A stretch of 64,000 nt of DNA, taken from positions 1 through 64,000 of the IMG/VR virus record IMGVR_UViG_3300044629_000431; one strand, written 5' to 3'. Both the position numbers and the translations under genes were made by a program. This document shows positions 5,538-59,497 of the stretch, piece after piece; the first letter of the stretch is position 1, and every line of letters starts with the position of its first letter. Below the pieces are notes generated by a model. It had not been told where the DNA came from and searched no databases. It worked only from the letters and a program-made list of their open reading frames with translations. This DNA is from a virus.

Positions 5538-6088
5538 AAACGAGTTCTTCCGTCAGTATCGTAGATATTGTAGATAGTATACTTGAAAGATGCCTCTGCT
5601 GTAAAGTACTGAACATCAGTGATCGTGGCATCAAAGTCAAGTGAGGTTAATGAATATGGAAACAGGTCCTTAAACTTAACTATAGCAGCATTTCTATAAC
5701 TTGAGTTTAATATTGATAACGACCCGTCGCTAAATGCTTCTTTTGGATCTTGTATTCCTTTATCATTGGTAATAAGATCAGCATATTCTGCAGTCGTTTC
5801 AGGAAAACCAAGACCAGTTATCCAGTTATGAACTGCCATATAGTTTTCAAGATTTTCATCCACCAAAAAACGAATTGTCAAATCACCATAAGTAATTTTT
5901 TCTCCAGGAATATCAATATCTTTTAGATATGATGGTTGCATTGCAAGAGCCAGATTAATTTCTGGTATTCTTACACTGTTACAAAAGAAGGAAACTTTTG
6001 GTTCTTTAGCAAGAGTAAACTTAAACCCTGCTGGTGATAAAAAGTTTCTATTTGTAATTTGACCTGGAAAATTGCAAGCAGTTGCCAT
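5534..6088 (-). CDS. gp19-family tail-tube-like protein
   Basis: A 184-residue protein with the signature of T4 gp19-type tube proteins: an N-terminal beta strand, KFTLAKEPKVSFFCNSVRIP, then LVDENLENYMAVHNWITGLGFP, which is shared by tube and tube-initiator families. It is not the main tube protein, because a separate gp19 is encoded at 12.2-12.8 kb. It may instead be a baseplate tube initiator or tail completion protein. Which one cannot be decided from sequence alone. It is coupled to uvsY by an ATGA overlap. Confidence 0.75.
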   Translation of the reverse strand: MATACNFPGQITNRNFLSPAGFKFTLAKEPKVSFFCNSVRIPEINLALAMQPSYLKDIDIPGEKITYGDLTIRFLVDENLENYMAVHNWITGLGFPETTAEYADLITNDKGIQDPKEAFSDGSLSILNSSYRNAAIVKFKDLFPYSLTSLDFDATITDVQYFTAEASFKYTIYNIYDTDGRTRL

Positions 6089-6092
6089 TATT

Positions 6093-6293
6093 TTATTGTG
6101 GAGAAAGTAAAGTATTTCTGATCATTCTTCCAACAAATTTACCAACACGATCTACTGGTTTTGTTGGTTTTGGTGGTGCTTGAATCATTGCATTTCTAAG
6201 ATTCCTTTGAACCTCAGGGTCATTTAGACTGATAACTTGTGCTGGTTTAATTGGATCACCAGCTGCTTCCAAAAACTGTCTAAAAGTTTTCAC
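6093..6293 (-). CDS. small protein with T4-like capsid-targeting N-terminus
   Basis: A 66-residue basic protein starting at a GTG codon (6291-6293). The first ten residues, MKTFRQFLEA, closely match the T4 capsid-targeting sequence MKTYQEFIAE that directs internal proteins IPI-IPIII into the prohead, where gp21 removes it. The rest is Pro- and Arg-rich, plausible for a DNA-contacting capsid protein. Packaging is inference. The gene lies 5 nt before the gp19-like gene, close to the capsid block. Confidence 0.65.
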   Translation of the reverse strand: MKTFRQFLEAAGDPIKPAQVISLNDPEVQRNLRNAMIQAPPKPTKPVDRVGKFVGRMIRNTLLSPQ

Positions 6294-6296
6294 GTA

Positions 6297-6455
6297 TCAG
6301 TCTGCAATGATAAGATTGAACCACGCTTCACTCATACCTGAAATAATATTATCAGCAGACTCTTTATCATCTGCATAACCTTCATTGATCAGATGCTCAA
6401 CAACCTTTTCGTAGTTCTTATGAATTTCTTGTGATTGTTTTGGAGATGGTTTCAT
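6297..6455 (-). CDS. small conserved cyanophage protein
   Basis: A 52-residue acidic helical protein (MKPSPKQSQEIHKNYEKVVE... ending WFNLIIAD). I recognise no domain; similar short proteins occur next to gp23 in cyanophages. The ATG is at 6453-6455 and the gene lies just beyond the gp23 terminator. It has the coding pattern of its neighbours and a stop 3 nt from the next gene. Confidence 0.6.
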   Translation of the reverse strand: MKPSPKQSQEIHKNYEKVVEHLINEGYADDKESADNIISGMSEAWFNLIIAD

Positions 6456-6484
6456 TGTTACTACTAGTTTTATTTTTATTTAGA

Positions 6485-6511
6485 TAAAAAAAGACCCCCT
6501 TTCGGGGGTCT
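6485..6511 (-). terminator. rho-independent terminator after gp23
   Basis: A stem of AGACCCCC (6492-6499) paired with GGGGGTCT (6504-6511), followed on the minus strand by seven T residues. It is a strong stop for the highly expressed major capsid transcript. Confidence 0.9.
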
Positions 6512-6531
6512 GACAGATATGTGAATCGAGA

Positions 6532-7932
6532 TCACATAAGGTTGGTAACCTTGACTCTTCTGTAGTAACGGTTTGCGTTACGATCAAGACCAGCACCGCT
6601 GATTGCGCTAGTACCCTGCGAGAATGGGTTAGCAACAATGCCATAACGGGTCTTGAAGCCGATCTTAGGCTGGAAGGTGTCCTGACCAACGGCACGTACC
6701 ATCTGGAGAGGTACATATGGGCAGTAGAACAGACCAGCATCATAAGGGGAAGAACCCTTATAACCTACGACGTAGTACTGGTTAGCAGATACGTTAGCAG
6801 CATAAGGATCGATATAAACACGATACTTACCTTGCAGAACACCTGCGAAGGTGTTACCAGTGTCATCAACGTTCAGGTTAGCGTTGAGTGCAGGGGTGTA
6901 ATCAAGAACACCTGCCATGGTGAGTGCCGAAGCAACGTCAGCAGAGCAGAGGATCATGTTACCCTTGCCACGACGAGTTCTTTGGGCGATAGCGTTTGCG
7001 TCACGCTCGATCTGGAAGATCAGACCCTTGAACTTCTCAACCGACCAACGACCGTTGGAGTCAACGTCGAGGTCAAAAGTACCAGCGGTTGCAACGTTTG
7101 CTTGAGCACCAGACTCAGCAACGTTGTAGATGGTACGGATAACTTCGCGGTTGATTTCAGCGAGAATCTCAGTGCTAAGGATGTTAGCAAGCTCAGCTTC
7201 TGCATTCAGACCGTGAATTGCCTTCAGGTCTTGTGCGAGTTCGAGCGAGTACTCAGCTTTCAGAGCACGTGACTTAGCGGTAACGGTGACTTTCTCGATC
7301 GAGAATGCCATCTCGTTGAAGTGGTCGCCAGTGCCTTGTCCAAGATTTTCTGCGTCATCGGTACGCATACCCTGACCTACGTTGTAGGTTTGGGCATCGC
7401 CAGTTGCAGGATAGGTTGCATCCAGAAGACCAGGGTTGGTTCCACGCTGGGTGGTAGTACCCATACCAACGCTACCAGCGGTGAAACCGTTGGTGAGGTT
7501 GAATCCGTTATCTTGACCGGAGAATGCGGTGTCCGCTTCGTTGAACAGAGCTTCAGTTCCGTTCATGTTAGCGTACTTAGAACGCATTGCGAAGATGAGT
7601 CCAGTAGGACCGTTCATTGGTTGAACGCCAGCGAGGTCATAAGCGACCAGGTTAGGCATTGAACGTCTGATCAGGGAGATCAGAACAGGGTCGAAACCAG
7701 CAACAGGTGAACTTGCGCTAGCAGAGAAACCTGGGTTTCCAGTGCTTGAGAAAGTGTTAACTGTTGGTGCTTCGGAAAGGAAAGAACGCTCTTCACGGAG
7801 TTCTCTCTCTTGGTTTTCAAGCAGGATTGCGGTTACCGCTCTACGATGTGAATCTTTGATTGGATCAAGACCATCATAGTCGAGGATTGGTGCCCACTTC
7901 TCCTGCAGATGCTCGGCATTGAACATTTGCAT
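6532..7932 (-). CDS. 23: gp23 major capsid protein
   Basis: A 466-residue HK97-fold major head protein. The N-terminal about 53 residues form the delta domain removed by the gp21 protease; a cleavage-type site FLSE|A is visible at residues 50-54. The body has family hallmarks such as DPVLISLIRRSMPNLVAYDL followed by PMNGPTGLIFAMRSKY. A GAGGT ribosome site lies 9 nt before the first ATG. Codon use is the most GC-rich and regular of the virion block, as expected for the most abundant protein. No gp24 paralogue is present in the window. Confidence 0.97.
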   Translation of the reverse strand: MQMFNAEHLQEKWAPILDYDGLDPIKDSHRRAVTAILLENQERELREERSFLSEAPTVNTFSSTGNPGFSASASSPVAGFDPVLISLIRRSMPNLVAYDLAGVQPMNGPTGLIFAMRSKYANMNGTEALFNEADTAFSGQDNGFNLTNGFTAGSVGMGTTTQRGTNPGLLDATYPATGDAQTYNVGQGMRTDDAENLGQGTGDHFNEMAFSIEKVTVTAKSRALKAEYSLELAQDLKAIHGLNAEAELANILSTEILAEINREVIRTIYNVAESGAQANVATAGTFDLDVDSNGRWSVEKFKGLIFQIERDANAIAQRTRRGKGNMILCSADVASALTMAGVLDYTPALNANLNVDDTGNTFAGVLQGKYRVYIDPYAANVSANQYYVVGYKGSSPYDAGLFYCPYVPLQMVRAVGQDTFQPKIGFKTRYGIVANPFSQGTSAISGAGLDRNANRYYRRVKVTNLM

Positions 7933-7984
7933 TTGATTTTTACCTCTTTTAAAAAAGTGTTGTTGTTTGTTTATAATCTAAAAA

Positions 7985-9070
7985 TCACTTTTTAGATGCT
8001 CTAGCAAGAGTCTCTAAGTAAGCAGCCATAACTGGCGAAACTGACTCATTAAGAGCTTGCTTCTCGGTTGTGGTTACTTCTTCAGAGAAATTCTCACTTG
8101 TGCTTCTTTGAGTACCAGTGTTTGATGGGAAATACGATTCCCTCAGTGTTACTAGTTTCTCACGATAGTCTGCTTCACTTCCAAACTCAACATTTTCGGC
8201 AAGAGAAGCGAGTTTGTCCTTCTGAGAAAGTGCAAGACCCTCAGTGACTTCTGCAAAGATTACATCAGCAACCGACTCGGCTAATCTTCTATTCAGAGCA
8301 ACGTTTCTTTCGATTTGCTCGTTGAGTTTTGTTTCCATTTCATCAAGTTTATCTACCATGCTCTCGATTACATCATATCTATCTTCAGGGATTGAAACAT
8401 AATGATCTTCAAAAAGTTGCTTCATGCCTGAGAGGAAGCTCTCAGTCATTTCGGTCTTAAGACCATGCTCAACTGCGAGAGCGTTCTCTTGGATCCACTC
8501 ATCGGCAACATACTCAAGGTATGCGTCGAGTCTTTCGGTCAGACCAACTTTAATAGTTTCGATTTCTTCTACGAGTGCTTGCTCGTATGCGGTTTGGAGT
8601 TGCTCTTTGATCTCTCCAACCTTAGTCTTGATAGCAGTTTCGAAGATGGTACGTGCTTTCTCTTGGAATTCCTCAGAAAGCTCTTCACCTGCAAGAAGTG
8701 CATTAACATCTTCTTCGATGTCAAACTCTTGTACTTCTTCTTCTACAACCTCTTCTTCAGCGGAATCCTCTTCCACTTCTTCACCGCCCTCAACCTCTTC
8801 GGTTTCGTCTTCGGTTTCCTCTTCGATGACTTCTTCCTCTACTTCGGTCTCTTCTGCCTTCATTGCTTTCGCATTGACAACATCTTTGACCTGAGCAAGA
8901 GTTGCACCGGGAGTTTTGAGTGCAGCTGAATCGTCATCGGGACGATAGTTTTCTGGAGTAGGACCGCCAAGATCCTCATAAGGTGCGCCGCCGCTATGCA
9001 TTGGTTCAGCAGGTGCAGCTCCTTTGGTTACTACGTTTTCCATTTCTTGTAAATTGCTACCAACGGACAT
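7985..9070 (-). CDS. 22: gp22 prohead core scaffold
   Basis: A 361-residue, very acidic, mostly helical scaffolding protein lying between gp21 and gp23 as in T4. The N-terminal third contains long Glu/Val/Asp runs (about residues 70-125). The middle is coiled-coil-like, and the C-terminus ends AAYLETLARASKK. In T4 it forms the prohead core and is digested by gp21. Transcription probably starts at the exact TATAAATA just upstream and runs on through gp23. Confidence 0.93.
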   Translation of the reverse strand: MSVGSNLQEMENVVTKGAAPAEPMHSGGAPYEDLGGPTPENYRPDDDSAALKTPGATLAQVKDVVNAKAMKAEETEVEEEVIEEETEDETEEVEGGEEVEEDSAEEEVVEEEVQEFDIEEDVNALLAGEELSEEFQEKARTIFETAIKTKVGEIKEQLQTAYEQALVEEIETIKVGLTERLDAYLEYVADEWIQENALAVEHGLKTEMTESFLSGMKQLFEDHYVSIPEDRYDVIESMVDKLDEMETKLNEQIERNVALNRRLAESVADVIFAEVTEGLALSQKDKLASLAENVEFGSEADYREKLVTLRESYFPSNTGTQRSTSENFSEEVTTTEKQALNESVSPVMAAYLETLARASKK

Positions 9071-51479: not shown

Positions 51480-52235
51480 TCAAATGATTCTTGTTTTTTC
51501 GTGACCAACGCGAACGCGAGGATCACACCAGATTTCAAAGCCTGCTTCCTTTGCATCCAAACAGAACGATACGTCTTCTCCACACATGTCCTGTACTTCA
51601 CCAGACTCAAAGACTTGCATCTTCGGTGCAAACCAAGGATACTTCATCTCAGGATGCTCAAAGACTCCTTTCTTAATCAGCAACCATCCAAAACCTGCAT
51701 AGTCAACAGTAAATGGCTTCCGACGCTTTTGAATCGTTTCTACGGTTTCATGATTCATCACACCACCATTGTTACGGAAGTCTTCCTCTTCCATCCAATG
51801 AGCAACAGATGTCGTGACACCATCTTCGGTTGCATACCAACCAGAAGCAATGTCTTGATCCATCAGAACCAGTTGCCAGAACTTTTCAGTATTGAATACA
51901 ATATCACTATCAATCCAAAGTTGCCAGTCATAGTTCAGTTTCCCATCCCAGGGAACCTGATCAGGACCACGCAGAACATTTGCACCCAGACACTTACAAC
52001 GTGCAAAGTTCACCATCGAACTGTAGTCTTGAGAGATCTGAATGCTTGCACCTGCCTGAACAAGATCAAAGCAGAGTTGTACAAAGTTCTTCAGATACGT
52101 GTAAGAAACACCTCTTCCAGGAAGACAGAATACAACTGACTTTCCTCTGACCATTTCTTTTGCCAAGTTGTAGTCCCATTCCTGTTCTTTTGCTACAACT
52201 GGAGTTTTTGCTTTTACGGTAAATCCTTTAGCCAT
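51480..52235 (-). CDS. family A-type glycosyltransferase-like protein
   Basis: A 251-residue protein with a nucleotide-sugar binding pattern: CLPGRGVSYTYLKNFVQLCF near residues 37-56, a DSD metal motif at 109-111 (WQLWIDSDIVF) and an acceptor-like region GFGWLLIKKGVFEHPEMKYP. The C-terminal GEDVSFCLDAKEAGFEIWCD and VGHEKT resemble GT-A glycosyltransferases found in cyanophages. It might modify lipopolysaccharide, phage DNA or virion glycans; the acceptor is unknown. Confidence 0.75.
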   Translation of the reverse strand: MAKGFTVKAKTPVVAKEQEWDYNLAKEMVRGKSVVFCLPGRGVSYTYLKNFVQLCFDLVQAGASIQISQDYSSMVNFARCKCLGANVLRGPDQVPWDGKLNYDWQLWIDSDIVFNTEKFWQLVLMDQDIASGWYATEDGVTTSVAHWMEEEDFRNNGGVMNHETVETIQKRRKPFTVDYAGFGWLLIKKGVFEHPEMKYPWFAPKMQVFESGEVQDMCGEDVSFCLDAKEAGFEIWCDPRVRVGHEKTRII

Positions 52236-52283
52236 AGAGTTGATAAATTTACATTCATATCATACAGTATTATCTATGTAAAG

Positions 52284-52445
52284 TCAAGCAGAGAGTTCTT
52301 GAAAACTTAAGTCTTCTTTGCGGTAGTTTCCAATCAATTCTACAACGTGATTTAACATATCCCAGGTTTGATGAAAGTCTGTTTCAGTAAGATCTTCATA
52401 GATGCATTTCTCTTGAACGTAAATGCAGTAATGCTTTTCATTCAT
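52284..52445 (-). CDS. small conserved cyanophage protein
   Basis: A 53-residue acidic protein (MNEKHYCIYVQEKCIYEDLT, ending SFQELSA). The ATG at 52443-52445 overlaps the end of the AbrB-like gene by 8 nt. Proteins of this shape with an ETDFHQTWDML-type helix are frequent in cyanophages. No function known. Confidence 0.6.
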   Translation of the reverse strand: MNEKHYCIYVQEKCIYEDLTETDFHQTWDMLNHVVELIGNYRKEDLSFQELSA

Positions 52446-52611
52446 CACGTTCACTTAGAACAACCTCATCACCTTCTATTTTAACACATATCTCAGTATC
52501 TTCATACCATGAGAGTTCATTGATGATTGCTTCTGGTATATTAATAAAGTACTCACCAGTAATTGGATCGACTTGTAGGGGTTGAAAAAATTCTCCGGAG
52601 TTTTTCTTCAT
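52438..52611 (-). CDS. AbrB/SpoVT-like small protein
   Basis: A 57-residue protein with the start at the internal ATG 52609-52611 (MKKNSGEFFQPLQVDPITGE). The longer frame would read into GC-rich noncoding DNA. The pattern QVDPITGEYFINIPEAIINE followed by LSWYEDTEICVKIEGDEVVL resembles swapped-hairpin AbrB-type DNA-binding or antitoxin proteins. A TATAAT-like box 9-14 nt upstream may be its promoter. A regulatory role is inference. Confidence 0.6.
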   Translation of the reverse strand: MKKNSGEFFQPLQVDPITGEYFINIPEAIINELSWYEDTEICVKIEGDEVVLSERDE

Positions 52612-52750
52612 TGAATGTATTATATGATTCGATTTTGTTTTTTTATATAGTACTTTTATACCTTTGATTATATCTCCGGGAAATTTTGAATTCGATGAAT
52701 ATTGATCGCTCGTTTTGGGTCGTTTATAGCTTACAGGGACCCAGAGGATT

Positions 52751-52788
52751 ATAAAACGCCCCCACGCGCCCCGCGCCACGGGGACGCG
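52751..52788 (-). terminator. GC-rich hairpin at the boundary of the GC island
   Basis: A 9-bp stem of CGCG plus CCCCG (52765-52773) against CGGGG plus CGCG (52779-52788) with one bulge, then on the minus strand GGGGGCG and a short T run. Probably the terminator of the first GC-island gene. The stretch 52612-52831 has no credible gene and marks an abrupt change from AT-rich to GC-rich sequence. Confidence 0.6.
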
Positions 52789-52831
52789 GCGGGCGGGGGA
52801 ACTGCTGCCCCCCGCACGAACGCACAAGGCG

Positions 52832-53023
52832 TCACCAGGACGGCAGCGCCTCCTGTGCCTCCTGGGCGTGGGTCTCTGAATACTGGGCGGCGATGGCGGT
52901 AGCGGGCAACCCCCAGTGAATGTAGGCGGAGGGGCGGGAACCGTTCTTCAGCTGGTCAGCACGGGAGACCCACTTGATCTGACGGGTCTGGAGGTCAGAG
53001 CACATGCAGAGGGGGAAGCGCAT
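52832..53023 (-). CDS. hypothetical small protein, GC island gene a
   Basis: A 63-residue protein (MRFPLCMCSDLQTRQIKWVS..., ending EAQEALPSW) starting at ATG 53021-53023. Codon use is strongly GC-rich. It has its own -10 element upstream. No family recognised. Confidence 0.55.
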   Translation of the reverse strand: MRFPLCMCSDLQTRQIKWVSRADQLKNGSRPSAYIHWGLPATAIAAQYSETHAQEAQEALPSW

Positions 53024-53046
53024 CGGGTGTCGGTTGAACTGAGAGT

Positions 53047-53052
53047 ATCCTA
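53047..53052 (-). promoter_or_regulatory. cassette promoter -10 (gene a)
   Basis: TAGGAT followed by ACT, 24 nt before the ATG. It is a variant of the island consensus TACAATACT, with the shared leader TCAGTTCAACCG. Confidence 0.5.
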
Positions 53053-53064
53053 CAGGGTCAGGGG

Positions 53065-53436
53065 TCAGATGGCAAGGGCATCATCGATCCGATCCATCAG
53101 GCGGTCACGGGCAGCGGCGCGACGGTCGGCAGCATACTGGGCAGCAGCGGCGGCAGCGTTGGCATCCTTATCCCCGACCCACTGGCGACCCAGAGAGTTG
53201 ACGGGGTTGAGCGTCCCCATGCGACCAGCACCGATAGCAATGTCACCCGACCCGACGTAAGAACCCTTACCAGCGTCGTGAGTCCCCAGAGCAGAGCGAC
53301 CCGAAGAATTGGTTTTGGTCAGAGCAGAGCGGCGGGTCTTACGGGCGGCAGACTTGAGCACCTTCACCTTAGGGGTCAGACCGTTGGCAGCGAGGTCAGC
53401 AGCGATGGCGGTCAGGTTGGCGGTCGAGCGGGTCAT
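53065..53436 (-). CDS. Ala/Arg-rich basic protein, GC island gene b
   Basis: A 123-residue basic protein; the ATG 53434-53436 in the conserved leader context ACGACCCATG is preferred to upstream codons. It opens MTRSTANLTAIAADLAANGL, has a basic middle (VLKSAARKTRRSALTK) and an Ala-rich helix (AAAAAAQYAADRRAAARDRL, about 93-112). It may bind nucleic acid; no family recognised. Confidence 0.6.
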   Translation of the reverse strand: MTRSTANLTAIAADLAANGLTPKVKVLKSAARKTRRSALTKTNSSGRSALGTHDAGKGSYVGSGDIAIGAGRMGTLNPVNSLGRQWVGDKDANAAAAAAQYAADRRAAARDRLMDRIDDALAI

Positions 53437-53460
53437 GGGTCGTTTGTTTGAACTGAAAGT

Positions 53461-53466
53461 ATTGTA
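53461..53466 (-). promoter_or_regulatory. cassette promoter -10 (gene b)
   Basis: TGC-TACAAT-ACT, an extended -10 element 24 nt upstream of the ATG of gene b. No -35 is evident. Confidence 0.7.
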
Positions 53467-53480
53467 GCAGGGGGGTCGGG

Positions 53481-53660
53481 TCAGTCGCGGTCGCTGATGT
53501 GCCAGATGCCCCACTGTCCATCCTGCTGGTTGCGAACCCTGATCGCTTCCTGCCGTTGCTGCCAATCATAGGTCTGCCATGCGTCAACCGTAGCGGCAAC
53601 GTCCGAAGGGTCGGAACCGTAGCAGGCATTCCAGATCAGGTTCGCTTCGTCAAGGGTCAT
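53481..53660 (-). CDS. small Trp/Gln-rich protein, GC island gene c
   Basis: A 59-residue protein (MTLDEANLIWNACYGSDPSD..., DWQQRQEAIRVRNQQDGQWG) starting at ATG 53658-53660 in the same ACGACCCATG context as gene b. Preceded by an extended -10. Function unknown. Confidence 0.6.
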   Translation of the reverse strand: MTLDEANLIWNACYGSDPSDVAATVDAWQTYDWQQRQEAIRVRNQQDGQWGIWHISDRD

Positions 53661-53680
53661 GGGTCGTTTGCTTTGGGAGT

Positions 53681-53686
53681 ATTGTA
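53681..53686 (-). promoter_or_regulatory. cassette promoter -10 (gene c)
   Basis: TGC-TACAAT-ACT, identical in core to the gene b promoter, 20 nt upstream of the gene c ATG. Confidence 0.7.
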
Positions 53687-53691
53687 GCAGA

Positions 53692-53865
53692 TCAGAGGGC
53701 ATTCAGTTGGGAGGCGATCCGTTCCGCTTCGGCAGGGGTAGCGCAGTGGGCGGCATCATACCAGACCCCAGGCATCAGGCGGCGGCGGATTCGGGCGCCG
53801 TCCGTTCTATAGGTGCCAGGCGCCTTAAGGATCTTATCCAGCAGGGGGAGGCGGGGCAGGAGCAT
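53692..53865 (-). CDS. small basic protein, GC island gene d
   Basis: A 57-residue protein read directly from sequence: MLLPRLPLLDKILKAPGTYR, then DGARIRRRLMPGVWYDAAHC and ATPAEAERIASQLNAL. The C-terminal AEAERI helix resembles the EAERMV helix of gene k. GC-rich codons; CCTCCG lies before the ATG. Function unknown. Confidence 0.6.
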   Translation of the reverse strand: MLLPRLPLLDKILKAPGTYRTDGARIRRRLMPGVWYDAAHCATPAEAERIASQLNAL

Positions 53866-53888
53866 CGGAGGTCGTCTGAACTGGAATC

Positions 53889-53897
53889 AGTATAGAA
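53889..53897 (-). promoter_or_regulatory. cassette promoter -10 (gene d)
   Basis: TTCTATACT on the minus strand, aligned with TACAATACT, with a CAGTTCAGACGACC leader to the gene d start. Confidence 0.5.
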
Positions 53898-53935
53898 GCA
53901 AAAGGGAGGGGGGATGCCCCTCCGTTGTGCCACTA

Positions 53936-54103
53936 TCAGAATTGGATGGGTTCGGCAGTCGGTGCGCTGATGGCAGCATAGTGGGCGGCGGCATCAGCGA
54001 TGTTTGCGTCTGCCACGTCGTCAGCGATGGAGTCCAGCACCTGCAGGAGTTCGGCACCGTTGGCGGCGCGGTTCAGAAGAGCGGTAGCAAGGTCAGCGGT
54101 CAT
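53936..54103 (-). CDS. small Ala/Asp-rich helical protein, GC island gene e
   Basis: A 55-residue acidic helical protein (MTADLATALLNRAANGAELL, DSIADDVADANIADAAAHYA). The ATG 54101-54103 is preferred over an in-frame ATG 24 nt upstream. The promoter is less clear than for its neighbours. Function unknown. Confidence 0.55.
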   Translation of the reverse strand: MTADLATALLNRAANGAELLQVLDSIADDVADANIADAAAHYAAISAPTAEPIQF

Positions 54104-54140
54104 GATGGAAGGAAGGTAAAGGGTCAAAGGGTAGGAAGGG

Positions 54141-54317
54141 TCAGGCAGCGATCAGCAGGTCATTCTCCCAGCGGGCAGCGGTCAGGATCTCATCGTAGAT
54201 CCGATCGGCAACCTGGTCAACGTAGCGGCGCTCATCCGCTTTCAGGATGGCAGCGCGGCACTGAGCGGCGATCTCATCAATGTTCAGAGCGCGGTCGGTG
54301 CGGGGGTTGTAGCGCAT
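54141..54317 (-). CDS. small helical protein, GC island gene f
   Basis: A 58-residue protein (MRYNPRTDRALNIDEIAAQC, RRYVDQVADRIYDEILTAAR) in the same ACGACCCATG start context. GC-rich codons. No family recognised. Confidence 0.6.
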   Translation of the reverse strand: MRYNPRTDRALNIDEIAAQCRAAILKADERRYVDQVADRIYDEILTAARWENDLLIAA

Positions 54318-54341
54318 GGGTCGTTTGCGGTTGACTTGTTA

Positions 54342-54347
54342 AGTGTA
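54342..54347 (-). promoter_or_regulatory. cassette promoter -10 (gene f)
   Basis: TACACT on the minus strand 24 nt before the gene f ATG; the leader AAGTCAACCGCAAACGACCC shares the island pattern. Confidence 0.55.
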
Positions 54348-54358
54348 AGGGGTCAGGT

Positions 54359-54376
54359 GGGGGGTTGGTGCCCCCC
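54359..54376 (-). terminator. GC hairpin between genes g and f
   Basis: A perfect 6-bp G:C stem (GGGGGG/CCCCCC) with a 6-nt loop between the gene g stop and the gene f promoter. It lacks a T tract. Confidence 0.5.
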
Positions 54377-54389
54377 TTGTGCCAGTTGA

Positions 54390-54566
54390 TCAATCGGCAT
54401 AGAGGCGCTGGAAGTCGTCCACAAACTCCCGTGCCTCATCGCCTGACATACGGGAGATCATCTCAGTGGCGATGGTCTCCCAGGAGTAGAGGTCTGCCAG
54501 ATCATAGATGGCGGACCGTGCCTGAGAGGCGGTCAGTTCGGAGGCGGTGATCTGAGCGTAGGTCAT
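54390..54566 (-). CDS. small acidic helical protein, GC island gene g
   Basis: A 58-residue protein (MTYAQITASELTASQARSAI, SGDEAREFVDDFQRLYAD). The stop lies in an imperfect dyad (TGCC-N12-GGCA). GC-rich codons. Function unknown. Confidence 0.6.
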   Translation of the reverse strand: MTYAQITASELTASQARSAIYDLADLYSWETIATEMISRMSGDEAREFVDDFQRLYAD

Positions 54567-54589
54567 GGGGTTTCGGTTGAACTGAAAGT

Positions 54590-54595
54590 ATTGTA
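54590..54595 (-). promoter_or_regulatory. cassette promoter -10 (gene g)
   Basis: TACAATACT with the leader TTCAGTTCAACCGAAACCCC, 23 nt to the ATG of gene g. Confidence 0.7.
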
Positions 54596-54608
54596 AGGGG
54601 TCAGGGGG

Positions 54609-54809
54609 TCAGGCGGCGGTGCTTTGTGCCACTTCCTCATCTGGCACACCGTGAAGAATGTCGATCATCTGCTGGTGGTAAGCATCAGCTTTGACCACTA
54701 CATTGTGAGACTCAGTTACATCCTCAATGTCATACTTTGTGAGTTCCAAAGTATTAATCACAGTGGAGAGGAGATCAGTCAGTGCCTCAATCTTTTGAGC
54801 GTCAGTCAT
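54609..54809 (-). CDS. small helical protein, gene h
   Basis: A 66-residue protein (MTDAQKIEALTDLLSTVINT, KADAYHQQMIDILHGVPDEE). Codon use is AT-rich, unlike the genes on both sides, which suggests that it has a different origin from the rest of the island. Function unknown. Confidence 0.6.
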   Translation of the reverse strand: MTDAQKIEALTDLLSTVINTLELTKYDIEDVTESHNVVVKADAYHQQMIDILHGVPDEEVAQSTAA

Positions 54810-54832
54810 CAGATCCCTTTGCGGTTGATCCT

Positions 54833-54838
54833 ATTGTA
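54833..54838 (-). promoter_or_regulatory. cassette promoter -10 (gene h)
   Basis: TACAAT followed by AGG, 23 nt before the gene h ATG. The leader AAAGGGATCTGATG is shared with the 119-residue zinc protein at 56.9 kb. Confidence 0.65.
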
Positions 54839-54841
54839 GGG

Positions 54842-54865
54842 GGTGGCGCCCCTCAGAACGCCACC
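54842..54865 (-). terminator. hairpin overlapping the gene i stop
   Basis: A 7-bp perfect stem (GGTGGCG/CGCCACC) with a 10-nt loop that contains the stop codon of gene i. Confidence 0.55.
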
Positions 54866-55104
54866 AACTGATCCAGATCCCATTGTGGCACACGGGCGAC
54901 CTCATCGATCACGTAGTTGCCGCGATGCTTGCGAATCCAGGCGTTAACGTGCTTCGTGGTGGTGGCGCTCCACTGGTAAGCGGTGCGGATCCAACCCTTG
55001 CCAGGGACGATGGCGGCGACGGGTTGATCATAGGAGAACAGGATGCAGGTCCCGTCTGCCAGGGTCACCTCGGTTTGGTTGCTGCCGACTTGCTGGACTT
55101 TCAT
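54853..55104 (-). CDS. small beta-rich protein, gene i
   Basis: An 83-residue protein starting MKVQQVGSNQTEVTLADGTC at ATG 55102-55104. The pattern FSYDQPVAAIVPGKGWIRTA and SATTTKHVNAWI resembles a small domain (FSY...PVA...TT.KH.N) present in many phage early proteins. No known activity. It has its own promoter. Confidence 0.65.
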   Translation of the reverse strand: MKVQQVGSNQTEVTLADGTCILFSYDQPVAAIVPGKGWIRTAYQWSATTTKHVNAWIRKHRGNYVIDEVARVPQWDLDQLVAF

Positions 55105-55128
55105 GTGGTTCGCTTGTGAACTGAGAGT

Positions 55129-55134
55129 ATTGTA
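55129..55134 (-). promoter_or_regulatory. cassette promoter -10 (gene i)
   Basis: TACAATACT with the leader CTCAGTTCACAAGCGAACCAC before the gene i ATG. Confidence 0.7.
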
Positions 55135-55139
55135 AGGGG

Positions 55140-55307
55140 TCAGCGGGCGATCAGGTCGCCTGCAGTGTACAGTGCCTGAGCTGTCACATGGCGGACGGGG
55201 CGAATCGGTTCCCAGAGCAACCACAGCAGCAGAGCACCAACGGTCAGGCGGAGCATGGTAGCACGGTGGAAGTCTGCGGAGCGGGAACGGGTCAGGGCTT
55301 TGATCAT
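55140..55307 (-). CDS. small membrane protein, gene j
   Basis: A 55-residue protein with a basic N-terminus (MIKALTRSRSADFHR) and one hydrophobic segment (LRLTVGALLLWLLWEPI, about residues 19-35), so a likely inner-membrane peptide. The ATG overlaps the stop of gene k (ATGA), so the two share a promoter. Function unknown. Confidence 0.6.
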   Translation of the reverse strand: MIKALTRSRSADFHRATMLRLTVGALLLWLLWEPIRPVRHVTAQALYTAGDLIAR

Positions 55308-55450
55308 GGTGCCAGGTGAGCGGGGGAACCACAGGAGCGGTAGAATTCTACCATGCGTTCCGCTTCGTCAAGGGTGGGGAACCATTGCGACCGCCACTCA
55401 CAATTGTTGTAGGGGACCTGGTAGCGGACTTCGTAGCGGGTCAGTGCCAT
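55304..55450 (-). CDS. small hypothetical protein, gene k
   Basis: A 48-residue protein (MALTRYEVRYQVPYNNCEWR, TLDEAERMVEFYRSCGSPAH) starting in the context CGACCCATG. Its DEAERM helix resembles gene d. It forms a two-gene unit with gene j. No TACAAT box was found close upstream. Confidence 0.55.
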   Translation of the reverse strand: MALTRYEVRYQVPYNNCEWRSQWFPTLDEAERMVEFYRSCGSPAHLAP

Positions 55451-55565
55451 GGGTCGATTGAAATGCTTTGGGGTGGGCAGTCCTCACCTCTGCCCTTGGG
55501 GGGTCCTCTTTCCTCCCCCCTGGTGAACATAGTATGGCACGGGCTGGGGGTCAGATCAACGGGGT

Positions 55566-55591
55566 CTGTGCCAGTTCAAAAAGTGGCACAG
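55566..55591 (-). repeat. 24-bp-type dyad 1 (TGTGCCA-N10-TGGCACA)
   Basis: Perfect 8-bp arms (CTGTGCCA/TGGCACAG) around a 10-nt spacer, first of a family of nine. It follows copy A of the duplicated element on the minus strand. The interval 55451-55726 has no credible gene. Confidence 0.75.
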
Positions 55592-55633
55592 GGTGGCTGG
55601 TCAGGGGGTGCTGGGGCTCTATGATAAGGTCAC

Positions 55634-55695
55634 AAGCGAAGGAGGGGCGGGGTATCCCTGAGGATGAAAAAGGTCGCCACGGGAGCAGCCTTAAA
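55634..55695 (-). ncRNA. duplicated element, copy A (candidate small RNA or degenerate ORF)
   Basis: About 55 nt sharing GAGGGG, GGTATCCCTG, GAAAA and TCGCCAC with a second copy near 58.7 kb, in the same orientation and at the same distance (about 50 nt) from a TGTGCCA dyad. In one minus frame both copies could encode FSSxGIPxPS, but no proper start is seen. Whether it is RNA or a peptide gene is open. Confidence 0.4.
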
Positions 55696-55726
55696 TTATA
55701 AAAAGCATCGCAAAAAAGGGAGGGCG

Positions 55727-55903
55727 TCACCGCCACCCCAGAAAGGTGGCAGGGTTGCCATAGTCTGCGATCACAATCCCATTGCAACGGATCTCACAGT
55801 AACCGTAATCCTCAGACAGACTGTAGCACAGATCGTAGGCGCGATCCTCATCAGTGGTCGTGTTCTCCCAGGGAGCGGAGGGGCAGATCACATCGTAACG
55901 CAT
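55727..55903 (-). CDS. small Cys/Tyr-rich protein, gene m
   Basis: A 58-residue protein starting MRYDVICPSAPWENTTTDED at ATG 55901-55903 and continuing DLCYSLSEDYGYCEIRCNGI. Four cysteines could bind metal. It is the last gene of the GC-rich stretch. Function unknown. Confidence 0.55.
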   Translation of the reverse strand: MRYDVICPSAPWENTTTDEDRAYDLCYSLSEDYGYCEIRCNGIVIADYGNPATFLGWR

Positions 55904-55930
55904 TCGGTTTGGTTCGTTTGGTATGAAACC

Positions 55931-55936
55931 AGTATA
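55931..55936 (-). promoter_or_regulatory. cassette promoter -10 (gene m)
   Basis: TATACT on the minus strand, 27 nt before the gene m ATG. Confidence 0.5.
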
Positions 55937-55964
55937 AGGGGTCAGGCGGCAGGATCGGGGGTGG

Positions 55965-55994
55965 CAGTGTGCCACCTATTCAACTGGCACACTG
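55965..55994 (-). repeat. dyad 2 overlapping the ligase-like gene stop
   Basis: Perfect 10-bp arms (CAGTGTGCCA/TGGCACACTG) with a 10-nt loop that contains the stop codon of the 298-residue gene. Confidence 0.85.
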
Positions 55995-56876
55995 AAAGCG
56001 TCCGCTGTTGAAGTTATGATAAGCGAAGACCTCACGATTGACCAGTTTGAACATACCAAACTCATTGGTCATGACATAACCTTCGGCATCAATTCGGTTG
56101 CCGTTAATGTAAGCGGCAGGACCATCATTGCGGCAGAGGAACAAACAATCATCTTTGATAGACTTCACCAATGCCCACAGACGCAGCAGGTTAATGTCAC
56201 AATCAAAGTCTTTGGGGTTGACTTCTTCACCAGCACGAATGCAGGCATTGATCTGTTGTTTGATCTTTGTCGCTTCCTTATCACTCACAAAGGTGGCAGT
56301 GGTTGCCATTTGACGGGCAAAGTTGCAGACCTCTTCAACATCAGCGAACGACTCCTGATTGTGCAGGATGTATGCATTCGGTTTCACGAACTTCACGTGC
56401 TCAGTATCATTCCAGATAGCACGGTCAGGGAATGCAACAGCGTCACGAAGATCGCTCTCAGCATAATAGCAAGTGTGCGGAGCGATGATGATGCTTTGCG
56501 TTACAATGTCACCGAACTGATAGGTAATGGTGTTGGAAGTGTACTCATTCAGTCCACCAAACCCGATGAAGTCTGCCTGATAGATTGTCTCAGTACGGGG
56601 CAGACTATCAAAGCAACAGTGCAGAATCTGTGCAACGTTGCCATCATAAAATGCATCTACCTCTTCGTGAGAGTGAGCAATACGAATCTTTTTCTTGTTA
56701 AAGACTGCTTTGGTGCCCACGAAAAATGTACCCGTGGCAGGGTCAATACCCCACACGATAGCAGGAGCACCATCAATCTTCACAGAAAGATGACCCTTTG
56801 CAGTGAACCAATCAAGAACCGAAAGGTCACCCGTCAGGATGGTATCTTCGGGGTGTTCGAGGTGTGTGTTTTTCAT
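55980..56876 (-). CDS. ligase-like nucleotidyltransferase
   Basis: A 298-residue protein with the order of covalent nucleotidyltransferase motifs: motif I K33-I-D-G36 (SVKIDGAPAIVWG), a middle VGTKAVFNKK and YQADFIGFGG region, motif IV E265-G-Y-V268 and motif V FKLV (K277). This fits a divergent ATP-dependent DNA or RNA ligase, or a degenerate relative; cyanophages carry a DUF family of this kind. K33 would be the AMP-accepting lysine. The insertion at about 170-255 is unusual. It has its own promoter and lies in the cassette array. Substrate and activity are unproved. Confidence 0.65.
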   Translation of the reverse strand: MKNTHLEHPEDTILTGDLSVLDWFTAKGHLSVKIDGAPAIVWGIDPATGTFFVGTKAVFNKKKIRIAHSHEEVDAFYDGNVAQILHCCFDSLPRTETIYQADFIGFGGLNEYTSNTITYQFGDIVTQSIIIAPHTCYYAESDLRDAVAFPDRAIWNDTEHVKFVKPNAYILHNQESFADVEEVCNFARQMATTATFVSDKEATKIKQQINACIRAGEEVNPKDFDCDINLLRLWALVKSIKDDCLFLCRNDGPAAYINGNRIDAEGYVMTNEFGMFKLVNREVFAYHNFNSGRFQCAS

Positions 56877-56885
56877 ACTGTTAGT

Positions 56886-56891
56886 ATTGCA
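56886..56891 (-). promoter_or_regulatory. cassette promoter -10 (ligase-like gene)
   Basis: TGCAATACT preceded by CG, only about 10 nt from the ATG, giving a very short or no leader. Confidence 0.55.
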
Positions 56892-56918
56892 CGAAAAAAG
56901 GAGGTCTGCAAGGGGGTG

Positions 56919-56942
56919 TGTGACAGTTCCTCAACTGTCACA
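56919..56942 (-). repeat. dyad 3 overlapping the zinc-protein stop
   Basis: Perfect 10-bp arms (TGTGACAGTT/AACTGTCACA) with a 4-nt loop (CCTC). The stop codon of the 119-residue gene is in the right arm. The arm has A for C in the TGTGCCA core, with the compensating change opposite. Confidence 0.85.
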
Positions 56943-57297
56943 AGTCATCCAGATTTACATTTTCCCAACCACTAAAATCAGGTTCTACATCACCCAGAAG
57001 TTGCTGAGCATAATATAACGTGCCACGTTCAAAGTTTCTATCACGAAAATCATCAGTTTGCCCACGATGCTTATACCAACTGAGAACACCGTGACCAACA
57101 TCAGAACGACTCACAATCGCCATATAATGATCATCACACCACACTTCATTCTCTTCTGCCATCTCACGCAATGCGGTGAGAGTTGCACAACACCAGTTGC
57201 GTTCTAGAAAGTTACCATTCTCATCAAAACCACATTTAGGATCATCACCTTCCCAATCTTTCACGAATGTGGAACAACGGGGGCATTTGTAAGTCAT
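56938..57297 (-). CDS. zinc-ribbon protein
   Basis: A 119-residue protein with an N-terminal CPRC (C5/C8), C22 and C36/C37, probably one zinc site, followed by an acidic helical part (TALREMAEENEVWCDDHYMA). The C-terminus ends in acidic WENVNLDDL. No named family recognised. It has its own -10 box and a leader ending ATCTGATG, like gene h. Confidence 0.65.
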   Translation of the reverse strand: MTYKCPRCSTFVKDWEGDDPKCGFDENGNFLERNWCCATLTALREMAEENEVWCDDHYMAIVSRSDVGHGVLSWYKHRGQTDDFRDRNFERGTLYYAQQLLGDVEPDFSGWENVNLDDL

Positions 57298-57323
57298 CAG
57301 ATCCCTTTGTTTGTGATCTTAGT

Positions 57324-57329
57324 ATTGCA
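57324..57329 (-). promoter_or_regulatory. cassette promoter -10 (zinc-ribbon gene)
   Basis: TGCAATACT immediately behind the T run of the preceding terminator, 26 nt before the ATG. Confidence 0.6.
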
Positions 57330-57331
57330 CG

Positions 57332-57357
57332 AAAAAAGGGGGGACGCAACCCCCCTT
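57332..57357 (-). terminator. rho-independent terminator of the 71-residue gene
   Basis: An 8-bp stem (AAGGGGGG/CCCCCCTT) with a 6-nt loop, followed on the minus strand by six T residues. The next promoter starts at once, so terminator and promoter are fused. Confidence 0.85.
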
Positions 57358-57380
57358 GTGCCACTTATTCAACTGTCACA
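57358..57380 (-). repeat. dyad 4 overlapping the 71-residue gene stop
   Basis: TGTGCCA-N10-TGTCACA with one mismatch between arms and the stop codon in the spacer. Confidence 0.65.
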
Positions 57381-57580
57381 CTCTCAATCAGTTCTTGAAT
57401 CACATCTTCATCATACACATACGAAATCTCAGTGAGAACATCCTCCTCAGATTTACCTGCGAAGTTCTCAACAATCGTATCATACGCAAACTGAATCAAA
57501 CACTTAACGTCCATCTCATCAACAATACGCTCAGCGTAGTTTTCAATGAGTTGGTCAAGTTGTTGGGAAGTGAGAGTCAT
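57365..57580 (-). CDS. small acidic helical cyanophage protein
   Basis: A 71-residue protein (MTLTSQQLDQLIENYAERIV, VENFAGKSEEDVLTEISYVY). Similar proteins with an ENY.ERIV.MD...LIQFAYDTI pattern are common in cyanophages. Its last codons and stop are part of a dyad. Function unknown. Confidence 0.65.
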   Translation of the reverse strand: MTLTSQQLDQLIENYAERIVDEMDVKCLIQFAYDTIVENFAGKSEEDVLTEISYVYDEDVIQELIESVTVE

Positions 57581-57589
57581 GAGTTTGTA

Positions 57590-57769
57590 TCAGTTAGAAG
57601 GAAAGTTACGGCAGACAGCATCACATAGCGTCTTCACCAGTTCCTGTTGTTCTTCATTGTATTCATCACCCCAAGTGTCATAAAAAAAACTTTCGATGAT
57701 ACAATCAATGTCCTCCATGAGTTGTTCACGAGCAGACAACATTTCCAGTTTAGGATTCAATTCAGGCAT
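57590..57769 (-). CDS. small acidic cyanophage protein
   Basis: A 59-residue protein read from sequence (MPELNPKLEMLSAREQLMED, DIDCIIESFFYDTWGDEYNE). The ATG overlaps the stop of the upstream 41-residue gene (TGATG). The NPKLEMLS.REQL...ID opening recurs in cyanophages. Function unknown. Confidence 0.65.
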   Translation of the reverse strand: MPELNPKLEMLSAREQLMEDIDCIIESFFYDTWGDEYNEEQQELVKTLCDAVCRNFPSN

Positions 57770-57894
57770 CAGTAATCGTAGTTAGCGTTCAGGTACTCAT
57801 TGACATCGAACTTCTCATCACGAAGTTCAGGAATGTCAAGGTCAAAAATCTCACCGGGCATGTCTTGGATTTCAGACCAGAGTTCATCAAACAT
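57769..57894 (-). CDS. very small acidic protein
   Basis: A 41-residue protein (MFDELWSEIQDMPGEIFDLD, NEYLNANYDY) with a TGATG overlap to the next gene. Strongly acidic. No family recognised. Confidence 0.55.
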   Translation of the reverse strand: MFDELWSEIQDMPGEIFDLDIPELRDEKFDVNEYLNANYDY

Positions 57895-57918
57895 GGTTTG
57901 TCTCTCAGGGACGAATGT

Positions 57919-57924
57919 AATGTA
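57919..57924 (-). promoter_or_regulatory. cassette promoter -10 (41-residue gene)
   Basis: GA-TACATT on the minus strand, 24 nt before the ATG; a weaker member of the promoter family. Confidence 0.45.
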
Positions 57925-57933
57925 TCAGGGTCT

Positions 57934-57953
57934 GGGGGGCATTGCAACCCCCC
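57934..57953 (-). terminator. GC hairpin behind the 97-residue gene
   Basis: A 6-bp G:C stem (GGGGGG/CCCCCC) with loop CATTGCAA. No T run. The same TTGCAA-type loop recurs in other gaps of the array. Confidence 0.5.
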
Positions 57954-57954
57954 T

Positions 57955-57978
57955 TGTGCCACTTGTCAGACTGTCACA
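57955..57978 (-). repeat. dyad 5 overlapping the 97-residue gene stop
   Basis: TGTGCCA-N10-TGTCACA with one arm mismatch; the stop codon is in the right arm. Confidence 0.6.
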
Positions 57979-58267
57979 CCAAACAGAATGCGTGGTTTTG
58001 AACAACATTTACCATGACACATTCCTGACGAAACTGTTTCTTATACTCGTCTGCAATGATCAACACTTCATCCAACATTTCCTCAGAGATAACAGTGAGA
58101 ATACGAACCTTTTCGTATTCACCATTCCAACAACCATAACCCTCAGTGAGTGTAAACCCCGTCAGGTTTTCTTGAATGATTTCTTTCAAAAACGAAGAGA
58201 ACATTACTGCATTCACTTCACCTGCATCAGGAATGTTTGCACCGAAGTAAACAGTGGTGGTGAACAT
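57974..58267 (-). CDS. small hypothetical protein
   Basis: A 97-residue protein (MFTTTVYFGANIPDAGEVNA, VMFSSFLKEIIQENLTGFTL, YGCWNGEYEKVRILTVISEE) with a ferredoxin-like alternation of strands and helices. No family recognised. AT-type codon use like the main phage genome. Confidence 0.65.
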   Translation of the reverse strand: MFTTTVYFGANIPDAGEVNAVMFSSFLKEIIQENLTGFTLTEGYGCWNGEYEKVRILTVISEEMLDEVLIIADEYKKQFRQECVMVNVVQNHAFCLV

Positions 58268-58288
58268 TGAAGTTTCTCAACTGTGGTT

Positions 58289-58294
58289 AGAATA
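58289..58294 (-). promoter_or_regulatory. cassette promoter -10 (97-residue gene)
   Basis: TATTCT preceded by CGTG, 21 nt before the ATG. Confidence 0.45.
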
Positions 58295-58319
58295 CACGAA
58301 ACCAGGGACCTTGCAACAT

Positions 58320-58343
58320 ACCCTGTGACACTTTCTCAACTGG
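58320..58343 (-). repeat. dyad 6 overlapping the 70-residue gene stop
   Basis: TGTGACA-N10-TGGCACT, an imperfect member; the stop codon lies near the right arm. Confidence 0.5.
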
Positions 58344-58548
58344 CACTCTTCATGTAGATACGGTCCATAATGCACAATGAAAGGTCAAAACGAATGTCAT
58401 CATCAACATCACCCATCTTTGCCTGAATAGCATCAGGAATGATCTCTTGCATAAAGTCTACCCAACGTTCATCAGCAAAAATATAATCAACCACTTCAGG
58501 GGTCAAAGCATCAGCGAGTTTCTGAATAGTTTGGTTGGAGAGAGTCAT
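58336..58548 (-). CDS. small acidic helical cyanophage protein
   Basis: A 70-residue protein (MTLSNQTIQKLADALTPEVV, ending DRIYMKSAS). The ATG at 58546-58548 is preferred over the TTG before it. Its MTLS...IQKLA opening is like the MTLTSQQLDQL start of the 71-residue gene, so the two may be distant paralogues. Function unknown. Confidence 0.6.
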   Translation of the reverse strand: MTLSNQTIQKLADALTPEVVDYIFADERWVDFMQEIIPDAIQAKMGDVDDDIRFDLSLCIMDRIYMKSAS

Positions 58549-58564
58549 CAAAACCTCACGAACA

Positions 58565-58570
58565 AATGTA
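58565..58570 (-). promoter_or_regulatory. cassette promoter -10 (70-residue gene)
   Basis: TACATT preceded by GTG, 16 nt before the ATG; a weak member. Confidence 0.4.
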
Positions 58571-58603
58571 CACTAACCCATCACCTGGTAGGTTGCAACC
58601 ACC

Positions 58604-58631
58604 CTTGTGCCACTAGACAAACTGGCACAAG
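58604..58631 (-). repeat. dyad 7 following duplicated element copy B
   Basis: Perfect 9-bp arms (CTTGTGCCA/TGGCACAAG) with a 10-nt spacer. It occupies the same place relative to copy B as dyad 1 does to copy A. Confidence 0.85.
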
Positions 58632-58679
58632 ACCCCTTGATCGGGACCATCTGCCGTGATATCTTATAACAAATTCAAT

Positions 58680-58738
58680 GAGGGGAGAGGTATCCCTGTA
58701 GACGAAAATACATCGCCACCGCTCCTGCCATAAAATAT
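58680..58738 (-). ncRNA. duplicated element, copy B (candidate small RNA or tiny ORF)
   Basis: The second copy of the element at 55.63-55.70 kb (shared GAGGGG, GGTATCCCTG, GAAAA, TCGCCAC). An 18-codon ORF (MAGAVAMYFRLQGYLSPH) could be read on the minus strand but is not conserved in frame in copy A. The interval 58571-58801 holds no other gene. Confidence 0.4.
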
Positions 58739-58740
58739 TC

Positions 58741-58770
58741 ATTCTCAATAAGGCGCGCCTTATTGAGAAT
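58741..58770. repeat. perfect 30-bp palindrome
   Basis: ATTCTCAATAAGGCG followed by its exact reverse complement, centred on GGCGCGCC. It has no loop, so it can form a cruciform or serve as a dimeric protein site. Its outer arm ATTCTCAATAA returns in the hairpin at 59466-59497. Confidence 0.95.
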
Positions 58771-58776
58771 TATATC

Positions 58777-58802
58777 ATGTGCCAATATTTAAACTGGCAC
58801 AT
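58777..58802 (-). repeat. dyad 8 adjacent to the 50-residue gene stop
   Basis: Perfect 8-bp arms (ATGTGCCA/TGGCACAT) with a 10-nt spacer, touching the stop codon of the 50-residue gene. Confidence 0.8.
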
Positions 58803-58954: not shown

Positions 58955-58988
58955 AGGTGTCTCGTCTAGATGTATGTGTCTAGTCTAG

Positions 58989-58994
58989 ATTGTA
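58989..58994 (-). promoter_or_regulatory. -10 element of the 50-residue gene
   Basis: GA-TACAAT-CT, overlapping the stop of the upstream ORF and 34 nt before the ATG. Confidence 0.6.
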
Positions 58995-59147
58995 TCATGC
59001 ATAATGACGATATGCAAGACTTTCGTAATCTTGCCCATCTCGTGCATAATCCTCGTCGAGATCTAGTGCATCTTGTGCATAATACTCGTCGAGATCGTAT
59101 GAATGATCGTTACAGTATGTGTAGTCGAGATCGTAGTCGTCGTACAT
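58995..59147 (-). CDS. Asp/Tyr repeat peptide
   Basis: A 50-residue, extremely acidic and Tyr-rich peptide with internal repeats (YDLDEYYAQDALDLDEDYAR). I take the ATG 59145-59147, which leaves a leader after the -10 at 59179; an in-frame ATG at 59172-59174 would nearly touch that box. The repeats follow the DNA motif ATCTCGNCGAG read in one frame, so this may be a by-product of DNA-level repeats rather than a selected protein. Confidence 0.45.
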   Translation of the reverse strand: MYDDYDLDYTYCNDHSYDLDEYYAQDALDLDEDYARDGQDYESLAYRHYA

Positions 59148-59178
59148 AAGCTCGTCGAGATCTTTGAAACGCATGTGT

Positions 59179-59184
59179 ATTGTA
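59179..59184 (-). promoter_or_regulatory. extended -10 upstream of the Asp/Tyr peptide
   Basis: TGC-TACAAT-AC, matching the GC-island promoters, inside the repeat cluster. Confidence 0.55.
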
Positions 59185-59300
59185 GCATAAAGCTCGACGA
59201 GATGCAAGATATACTAGATGTAGATCTCGACGAGATTCATAACAATATATATGTGTTCTCGTCTAGAATTGTGTGCTTCTCGACACATGTTCTCGACTAG

Positions 59301-59465: not shown

Positions 59466-59497
59466 TATTCTCAATAATATCAACTTTATTGAGAATA
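59466..59497. repeat. 12-bp stem hairpin sharing the palindrome arm
   Basis: TATTCTCAATAA (59466-59477) and TTATTGAGAATA (59486-59497) with an 8-nt loop. The arm contains the same ATTCTCAATAA as the 30-bp palindrome 700 bp away. It could act as an AT-rich terminator or a protein site. Confidence 0.9.

Follow-up and report, generated by a model that had tools for sequence, protein, structure and literature searches.

Paired copies of a predicted small structured RNA between the genes of freshwater and marine cyanophages

The presence of the same short element at two places in a viral genome raised the question of what is encoded there: an RNA, a peptide or a DNA site. The window analysed here is a stretch of 64 kb out of a 146,477-bp virus record. 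The best relative of its DUF6267 protein was the counterpart in the freshwater Synechococcus phage S-SRM01 (67% identity), which places the virus near the Kyanoviridae, the T4-like cyanophages. An earlier note, made from the letters of the window, had described two copies with shared sequence blocks, each at a similar distance from a perfect dyad and flanked by different genes, and had favoured a small RNA ending at the dyad. The duplication proved to be real. Both copies were located on the same strand, contained the described blocks and belonged to one repeat family (D5, 81% over 32 nt), and the genes flanking copy 1 and copy 2 differed. The pattern GGTATCCCTGNNGANGAAAA had two exact matches in the window, compared with 0.22 expected even when three mismatches were allowed. 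A perfect TGTGCCA/TGGCACA dyad was found to the left of each copy, at a distance of 43 nt for copy 1 and 50 nt for copy 2, and a second dyad was present on the right of copy 2. The base composition of the window was uneven, with a block of 52-57% G+C at 52000-56000 and mostly approximately 35% G+C elsewhere, and CTCGTCGAGATCT repeats in both orientations were clustered at 58960-59300. The search for a replication origin by GC skew was abandoned, as the skew was monotonic in both genomes and therefore uninformative.

The element was not confined to a two-copy repeat. A BLAST search with copy 2 identified it, unannotated, in S-SRM01 (E = 2e-5), and pattern scans of viral contigs raised the number of loci to approximately 125, counting the window and S-SRM01, with the element positioned between genes. 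The covariance search proposed in the earlier note was performed with model R1, derived from an alignment of 77 sequences (A1), and homologous loci were recovered in other cyanophage records. According to R1, the record from which the window comes (G000), S-SRM01 and five further long records each contained exactly two copies, and one more long record contained a single copy. The contig L460 carried four RNA copies, one of which was inverted; at 6021-8230 of this contig the inverted copy was convergent with another copy, approximately 60 nt apart. One copy was found by a later BLAST search in the isolate DSL-LC03. Model R2 was trained on 69 copies, including diverged second copies and no marine isolate. 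Outside its training set, it matched the marine single-cell virus AG-345-F15 (E = 2.6e-11), P-SSM2 (2.6e-7) and S-SSM7 (4e-5), values that apply to a small search space and become 6e-6 for P-SSM2 and 9e-4 for S-SSM7 against whole genomes. Because P-SSM2 and S-SSM7 were part of the training set of model R3, the E-values that R3 gives for both are circular. The copies of the three marine viruses were diverged. The copy of P-SSM2 was located on its minus strand at 66,479-66,561, and those of S-SRM01 likewise on the minus strand at 88,576-88,680 and 90,128-90,230. The covariance models gave no significant match in S-CRM01, S-PM2 (R1-R3), Syn30, Syn19, P-RSM1, S-P4, S-SM2, S-SKS1, Bellamy, S-CBWM1 and ACG-2014f. 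A model search over 292 cyanobacterial genomes was empty, which is weak evidence under the strict filters used, and the pattern applied in a scan of bacterial genomes was too loose. Paired copies were separated by 1-4 kb, and upstream and downstream copies mostly grouped apart from each other in a tree of poor resolution. These sequence comparisons indicate that the element is carried by many freshwater and some marine cyanophages, usually as a pair.

The aligned copies shared a hairpin, P1, of five base pairs (5-6 bp) with a nearly fixed RRGGUA loop (RRGGT(A/C)), followed on its 3' side by a conserved core, GACGACAAUACAUCGCCAC..CCUGCC. The loop sequence was conserved and the stem sequence variable; the stems included GGGGA/TCCCT, GCGGT/ACCGT, GGCGG/CCGCT, GGTGC/GCACT, GGGGC/GCCCT, GGCAGA/TCTGCC, ACCGGC/GCCGGT, GAGGT/ACCTC and, in S-SSM7, GACCT/AGGTC. 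In alignment A1, 49 cells were altered on both sides of the stem, compared with 6.4 in shuffles (0/500). The corresponding numbers for A2 (69 copies) were 70 and 16.3, with four of the five pairs covarying, and all five pairs covaried once the marine copies had been added (A3, 0/500); the shuffle controls leave some relatedness in, and many different pair types were present. The signal collapsed in slid-register controls. The pairing was also strand-specific, since 344 of the 345 P1 cells of the 69 copies were intact on the plus strand, compared with 288 when read on the minus strand. The basal pair was G-U in 55 of the 69 copies and G-C or C-G in the remainder; G-U becomes an A.C mismatch on the minus strand, and 57 of 345 cells consequently break there versus one on the plus strand. 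This sole broken cell in A2 was the closing pair of copy 1 of the window, and the occurrence of the same variant in three other contigs makes a sequencing error unlikely. An inverted repeat with conserved flanks, in copies paired 1-4 kb apart, might also be expected of a DNA site for protein binding, recombination or replication. We consider such a site very improbable, because the prevalent basal G-U pair suits an RNA of one strand only, a -10 box is fixed in all copies, and the loop is conserved where the stem sequence is not. Free folding of single sequences often preferred structures other than P1. A second helix within the core lacked covariation support, showing only a one-sided C-G/U-G change, and was dropped, as was a hammerhead-like CUGANGA that was not conserved across copies; no tRNA was matched. 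The first 70 nt or so of the predicted RNA thus consist of the P1 hairpin and a conserved, mostly unpaired core, and comparative analysis identifies the two elements of the window as a pair of paralogous plus-strand genes, each encoding a small structured RNA.

Short open frames extend over single copies and would allow a small peptide to be encoded, either FSSxGIP (minus strand) or GIP..EN (plus strand). However, the distance from the loop to CGnCAC was 17, 18, 19, 20 or 21 nt among the copies, and with such shifts of 1-4 nt between conserved blocks the family has no common reading frame. The stem substitutions were compensatory, preserving pairing and not codons. The chance of a peptide gene is therefore close to negligible, and for the family as a whole the peptide reading, including the FSSxGIP peptide suggested earlier, is refuted. 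GIP.../QYIATAPA had been followed as a coding remnant, for which tblastn matched S-SRM01 only; it was dropped in the light of the stem covariation and spacing. The comparison of the copies gives strong support to a small RNA that is structured and encodes no peptide.

The dyads were the next element to be explained. TGTGCCA-type dyads occurred 11 times in the window, compared with 0.35 expected in shuffled sequence, and most were located within 54.6-58.8 kb. TGTGCCA-N10-TGGCACA dyads were seen between 53498 and 58801 of the window and also at position 64800 of its own genome. A common architecture was apparent, composed of the dyad, 7 nt, a -35-like TTG, 17 nt and TANNNT (the three defining positions of a -10 box), with the -10 box 29-31 nt from the dyad edge. 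TANNNT opened 69 of 69 aligned copies at a fixed place. In RNA-bearing contigs, 344 distinct dyads with 683 sides had TANNNT at offsets 29, 30 and 31 on 123, 151 and 72 sides, respectively (approximately 8 per offset elsewhere), and TTG at offset 7 on 136 sides (versus approximately 9), although this set includes the RNA promoters and related contigs and does not represent 344 independent events. The few marine stretches examined agreed, with TTG at offset 7 on 8 of 24 sides. In the own genome of the window, the pattern was found to the left of most dyads, at the start of the next leftward gene, and was clearly two-sided only at dyads 55567 and 58606, beside the RNAs. The predicted promoter of RNA copy 1 had 9/12 matches and was the sole promoter-like site of its region; that of copy 2, with 8/12, was under the threshold of the promoter scan. 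At the dyad right of copy 2, TACAAT was observed at approximately the -10 distance on the right side, although neither a gene nor an RNA reading rightward was recognised there.

From these motifs, each RNA is predicted to be transcribed from a promoter of the sigma-70 type, with the promoter of a leftward gene facing the opposite way on the other side of the shared 24-bp dyad, and hence to have a promoter of its own on the RNA strand, a feature expected of a phage small RNA gene. The matched spacing between dyad and copy reported in the earlier note was confirmed, and the fixed dyad-to-box offsets identify it as dyad-to-promoter spacing, part of an architecture common to the neighbouring genes and the RNA, which looks general in these cyanophages. 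The same fixed distance from the -35 and -10 boxes led us to drop a terminator role for the matched dyads. These lie upstream of the RNA promoter and the RNA reads away from them, so that of the original proposal the small structured RNA stands (on covariation, strand-specific G-U pairs, the -10 box and variable spacing), whereas its ending at the dyad is not supported. The features are listed in the table below. Model R1 matched copy 1 at 55607-55708 (62.8 bits, E = 5.9e-11) and copy 2 at 58647-58747 (95.2 bits, E = 5e-18), the window being within its training set.

Table 1. Coordinates of the two RNA copies and associated features in the window
Feature	Position	Strand	Comment
Dyad TGTGCCAGTTCAAAAAGTGGCACA	55567..55590	.	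Common upstream element of predicted divergent promoters (leftward gene and rightward RNA copy 1)
Boxes beside dyad 55567..55590: left TTGATC/CATACT, right TGGTCA/TATGAT			Standard offsets
Predicted promoter of RNA copy 1, TGGTCA-16-TATGAT	55598..55625	+	-10 at 55620-55625
RNA copy 1	55632..55700	+	Start predicted from -10; 55700 not an established 3' end
Hairpin P1, copy 1: GGGGC (GGGGTA) TCCCT	55644..55659	+	Closing C.U mismatch
Conserved core, copy 1, GATGAAAAAGGTCGCCAC	55663..55680	+	Comparison with homologues
GC-rich hairpin	55719..55741	.	Putative terminator of leftward gene (minus-strand terminator-like 55739-55721)
Dyad TGTGCCACTAGACAAACTGGCACA	58606..58629	.	Predicted divergent promoters: TTGCAA/TAGTGT left, TTGATC/TATCTT right
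Predicted promoter of RNA copy 2, TTGATC-17-TATCTT	58637..58665	+	-10 at 58660-58665
RNA copy 2	58672..58739	+	Predicted start; 58739 not an established 3' end
Hairpin P1, copy 2: GGGGA (GAGGTA) TCCCT	58682..58697	+	
Conserved core, copy 2, GACGAAAATACATCGCCAC	58701..58719	+	Comparison with homologues
Perfect 30-nt palindrome ATTCTCAATAAGGCGCGCCTTATTGAGAAT	58741..58770	.	Candidate 3' end of RNA copy 2
Dyad right of copy 2	58778..58801	.	Just beyond stop of leftward 50-aa gene

A strong plus-strand intrinsic terminator was not found after the copies when the window copies and their homologues were scanned. Hairpins followed many copies, with a T tract on the plus strand in few. The GC-rich hairpin at 55719..55741 is a possible end of RNA copy 1, and the palindrome at 58741..58770 a possible end of RNA copy 2. 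A downstream dyad was present after copy 2 (58778-58801) and in P-SSM2 and AG-345-F15, and the RNA may extend to it in these cases. The palindrome ATTCTCAATAAG..CTTATTGAGAAT was observed at 58741-58770 and 59467-59496 of the window and also after the RNA in many related contigs. In five contigs (L173, L032, L196, L103 and L172), a AAAAAAAGG..CC..TT bidirectional terminator was located directly after the upstream copy, and in some of them a ACTTTTTTT..AAAAAAAGT inverted repeat directly followed the element.

The RNA was located between opposite-strand genes in the window, S-SRM01 and P-SSM2, and was convergent with the gene on its right in DSL-LC03; in S-SRM01 the next gene on the RNA strand was approximately 10 kb off. 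The neighbours encoded small proteins without known function, including DUF6267, DUF3574 and GP88 family members. The put antitermination RNAs of phage HK022 are hairpin-based and occur twice per genome at the very start of transcripts, and the present RNA resembles them in these respects. As the element forms the first 70 nt or so after the start site, is usually present twice per genome and is followed straight away by terminator-like hairpins, it might act in cis on RNA polymerase, with the hairpin and core altering downstream termination. Such an action is unlikely, because, unlike in HK022, there are no same-strand genes to antiterminate downstream of the terminators; in the window and S-SRM01 the downstream genes are on the opposite strand and readthrough would yield only antisense RNA. 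The nearly constant opposite orientation to the neighbours, whose promoters and ends adjoin the RNA, would suit an antisense regulator acting in cis on convergent or divergent genes, by interference or mRNA-end pairing, with the structure serving stability only. Nevertheless, the neighbours differ among clades while the core is kept almost letter for letter, and simple antisense has no need of an invariant loop and core, which makes this explanation doubtful.

A promoter-driven, probably early, trans-acting small RNA with two sibling gene copies is, in our judgement, the best explanation and a fairly probable one. Its dyad-promoter architecture is that of the neighbouring small genes, which suggests that host RNA polymerase transcribes them together with the RNA, probably early in infection. 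Sigma-70-like promoters are typical of early genes in the T4-like cyanophage Ma-LMM01 (PMC5780444), and it is this resemblance to promoters in other phages from which the early timing is deemed probable. The RNA would be released at the hairpins downstream of it and would act in trans, with its loop and GACGACAAUACAUCGCCAC core presented to a protein or mRNA of either the phage or the host. Action in trans is favoured by the invariance of loop and core while the neighbours change, and the two copies would represent parallel, slightly diverged genes, as in sibling sRNAs. When trans targets were sought in the own and S-SRM01 genomes, nothing rose above chance: no complement of at least 12 nt stood out, and the few 11-nt matches were chance-like. 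More tentatively, the family could be a regulatory RNA class that acts early on a host RNA-binding protein, RNase or mRNA, with the divergent promoters controlled via a new dyad-binding regulator of many small genes.

Rfam gave no match at the gathering score in the window, and permissive E-value searches with the window copies and nine homologous loci returned nothing relevant. The best reading of these searches is that the RNA represents a new family absent from Rfam. The Rfam RNAs wcaG, manA, PhotoRC-II, glnA and abiF (PMC2864571, PMC9964418) are likewise structured, found in T4-like cyanophages and known from comparative sequence analysis. However, the first four are cis elements upstream of genes and abiF is another family, whereas no same-strand gene lies downstream here. 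CfrI, an antisense RNA of cyanophage S-PM2 located at psbA (PMC12197685), is similar in being transcribed opposite to genes, but the RNAs of S-SRM01 (88.6-90.2 kb) are far from psbA (207-209 kb), and S-PM2 is without a match. The intergenic repeats of halovirus HF2 carry promoters (PMC8707807), as the dyads do here as promoter parts, although HF2 is an archaeal virus with unrelated sequence and no structured RNA attached. Nothing similar was found in the searchable cyanophage literature; subscription papers were outside the search, and an earlier description is possible.

In T4-like cyanophages, very small genes whose purpose is unknown make up large blocks. The dyad-promoter rule provides a route to predicting the start sites of the small genes that surround the RNA. 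The presence of the RNA in P-SSM2, a phage that has been isolated and transcriptome-profiled, makes the predictions directly testable. Its retention from freshwater Synechococcus to marine Prochlorococcus phages, usually in two copies, points to a regulatory role overlooked by protein annotation.
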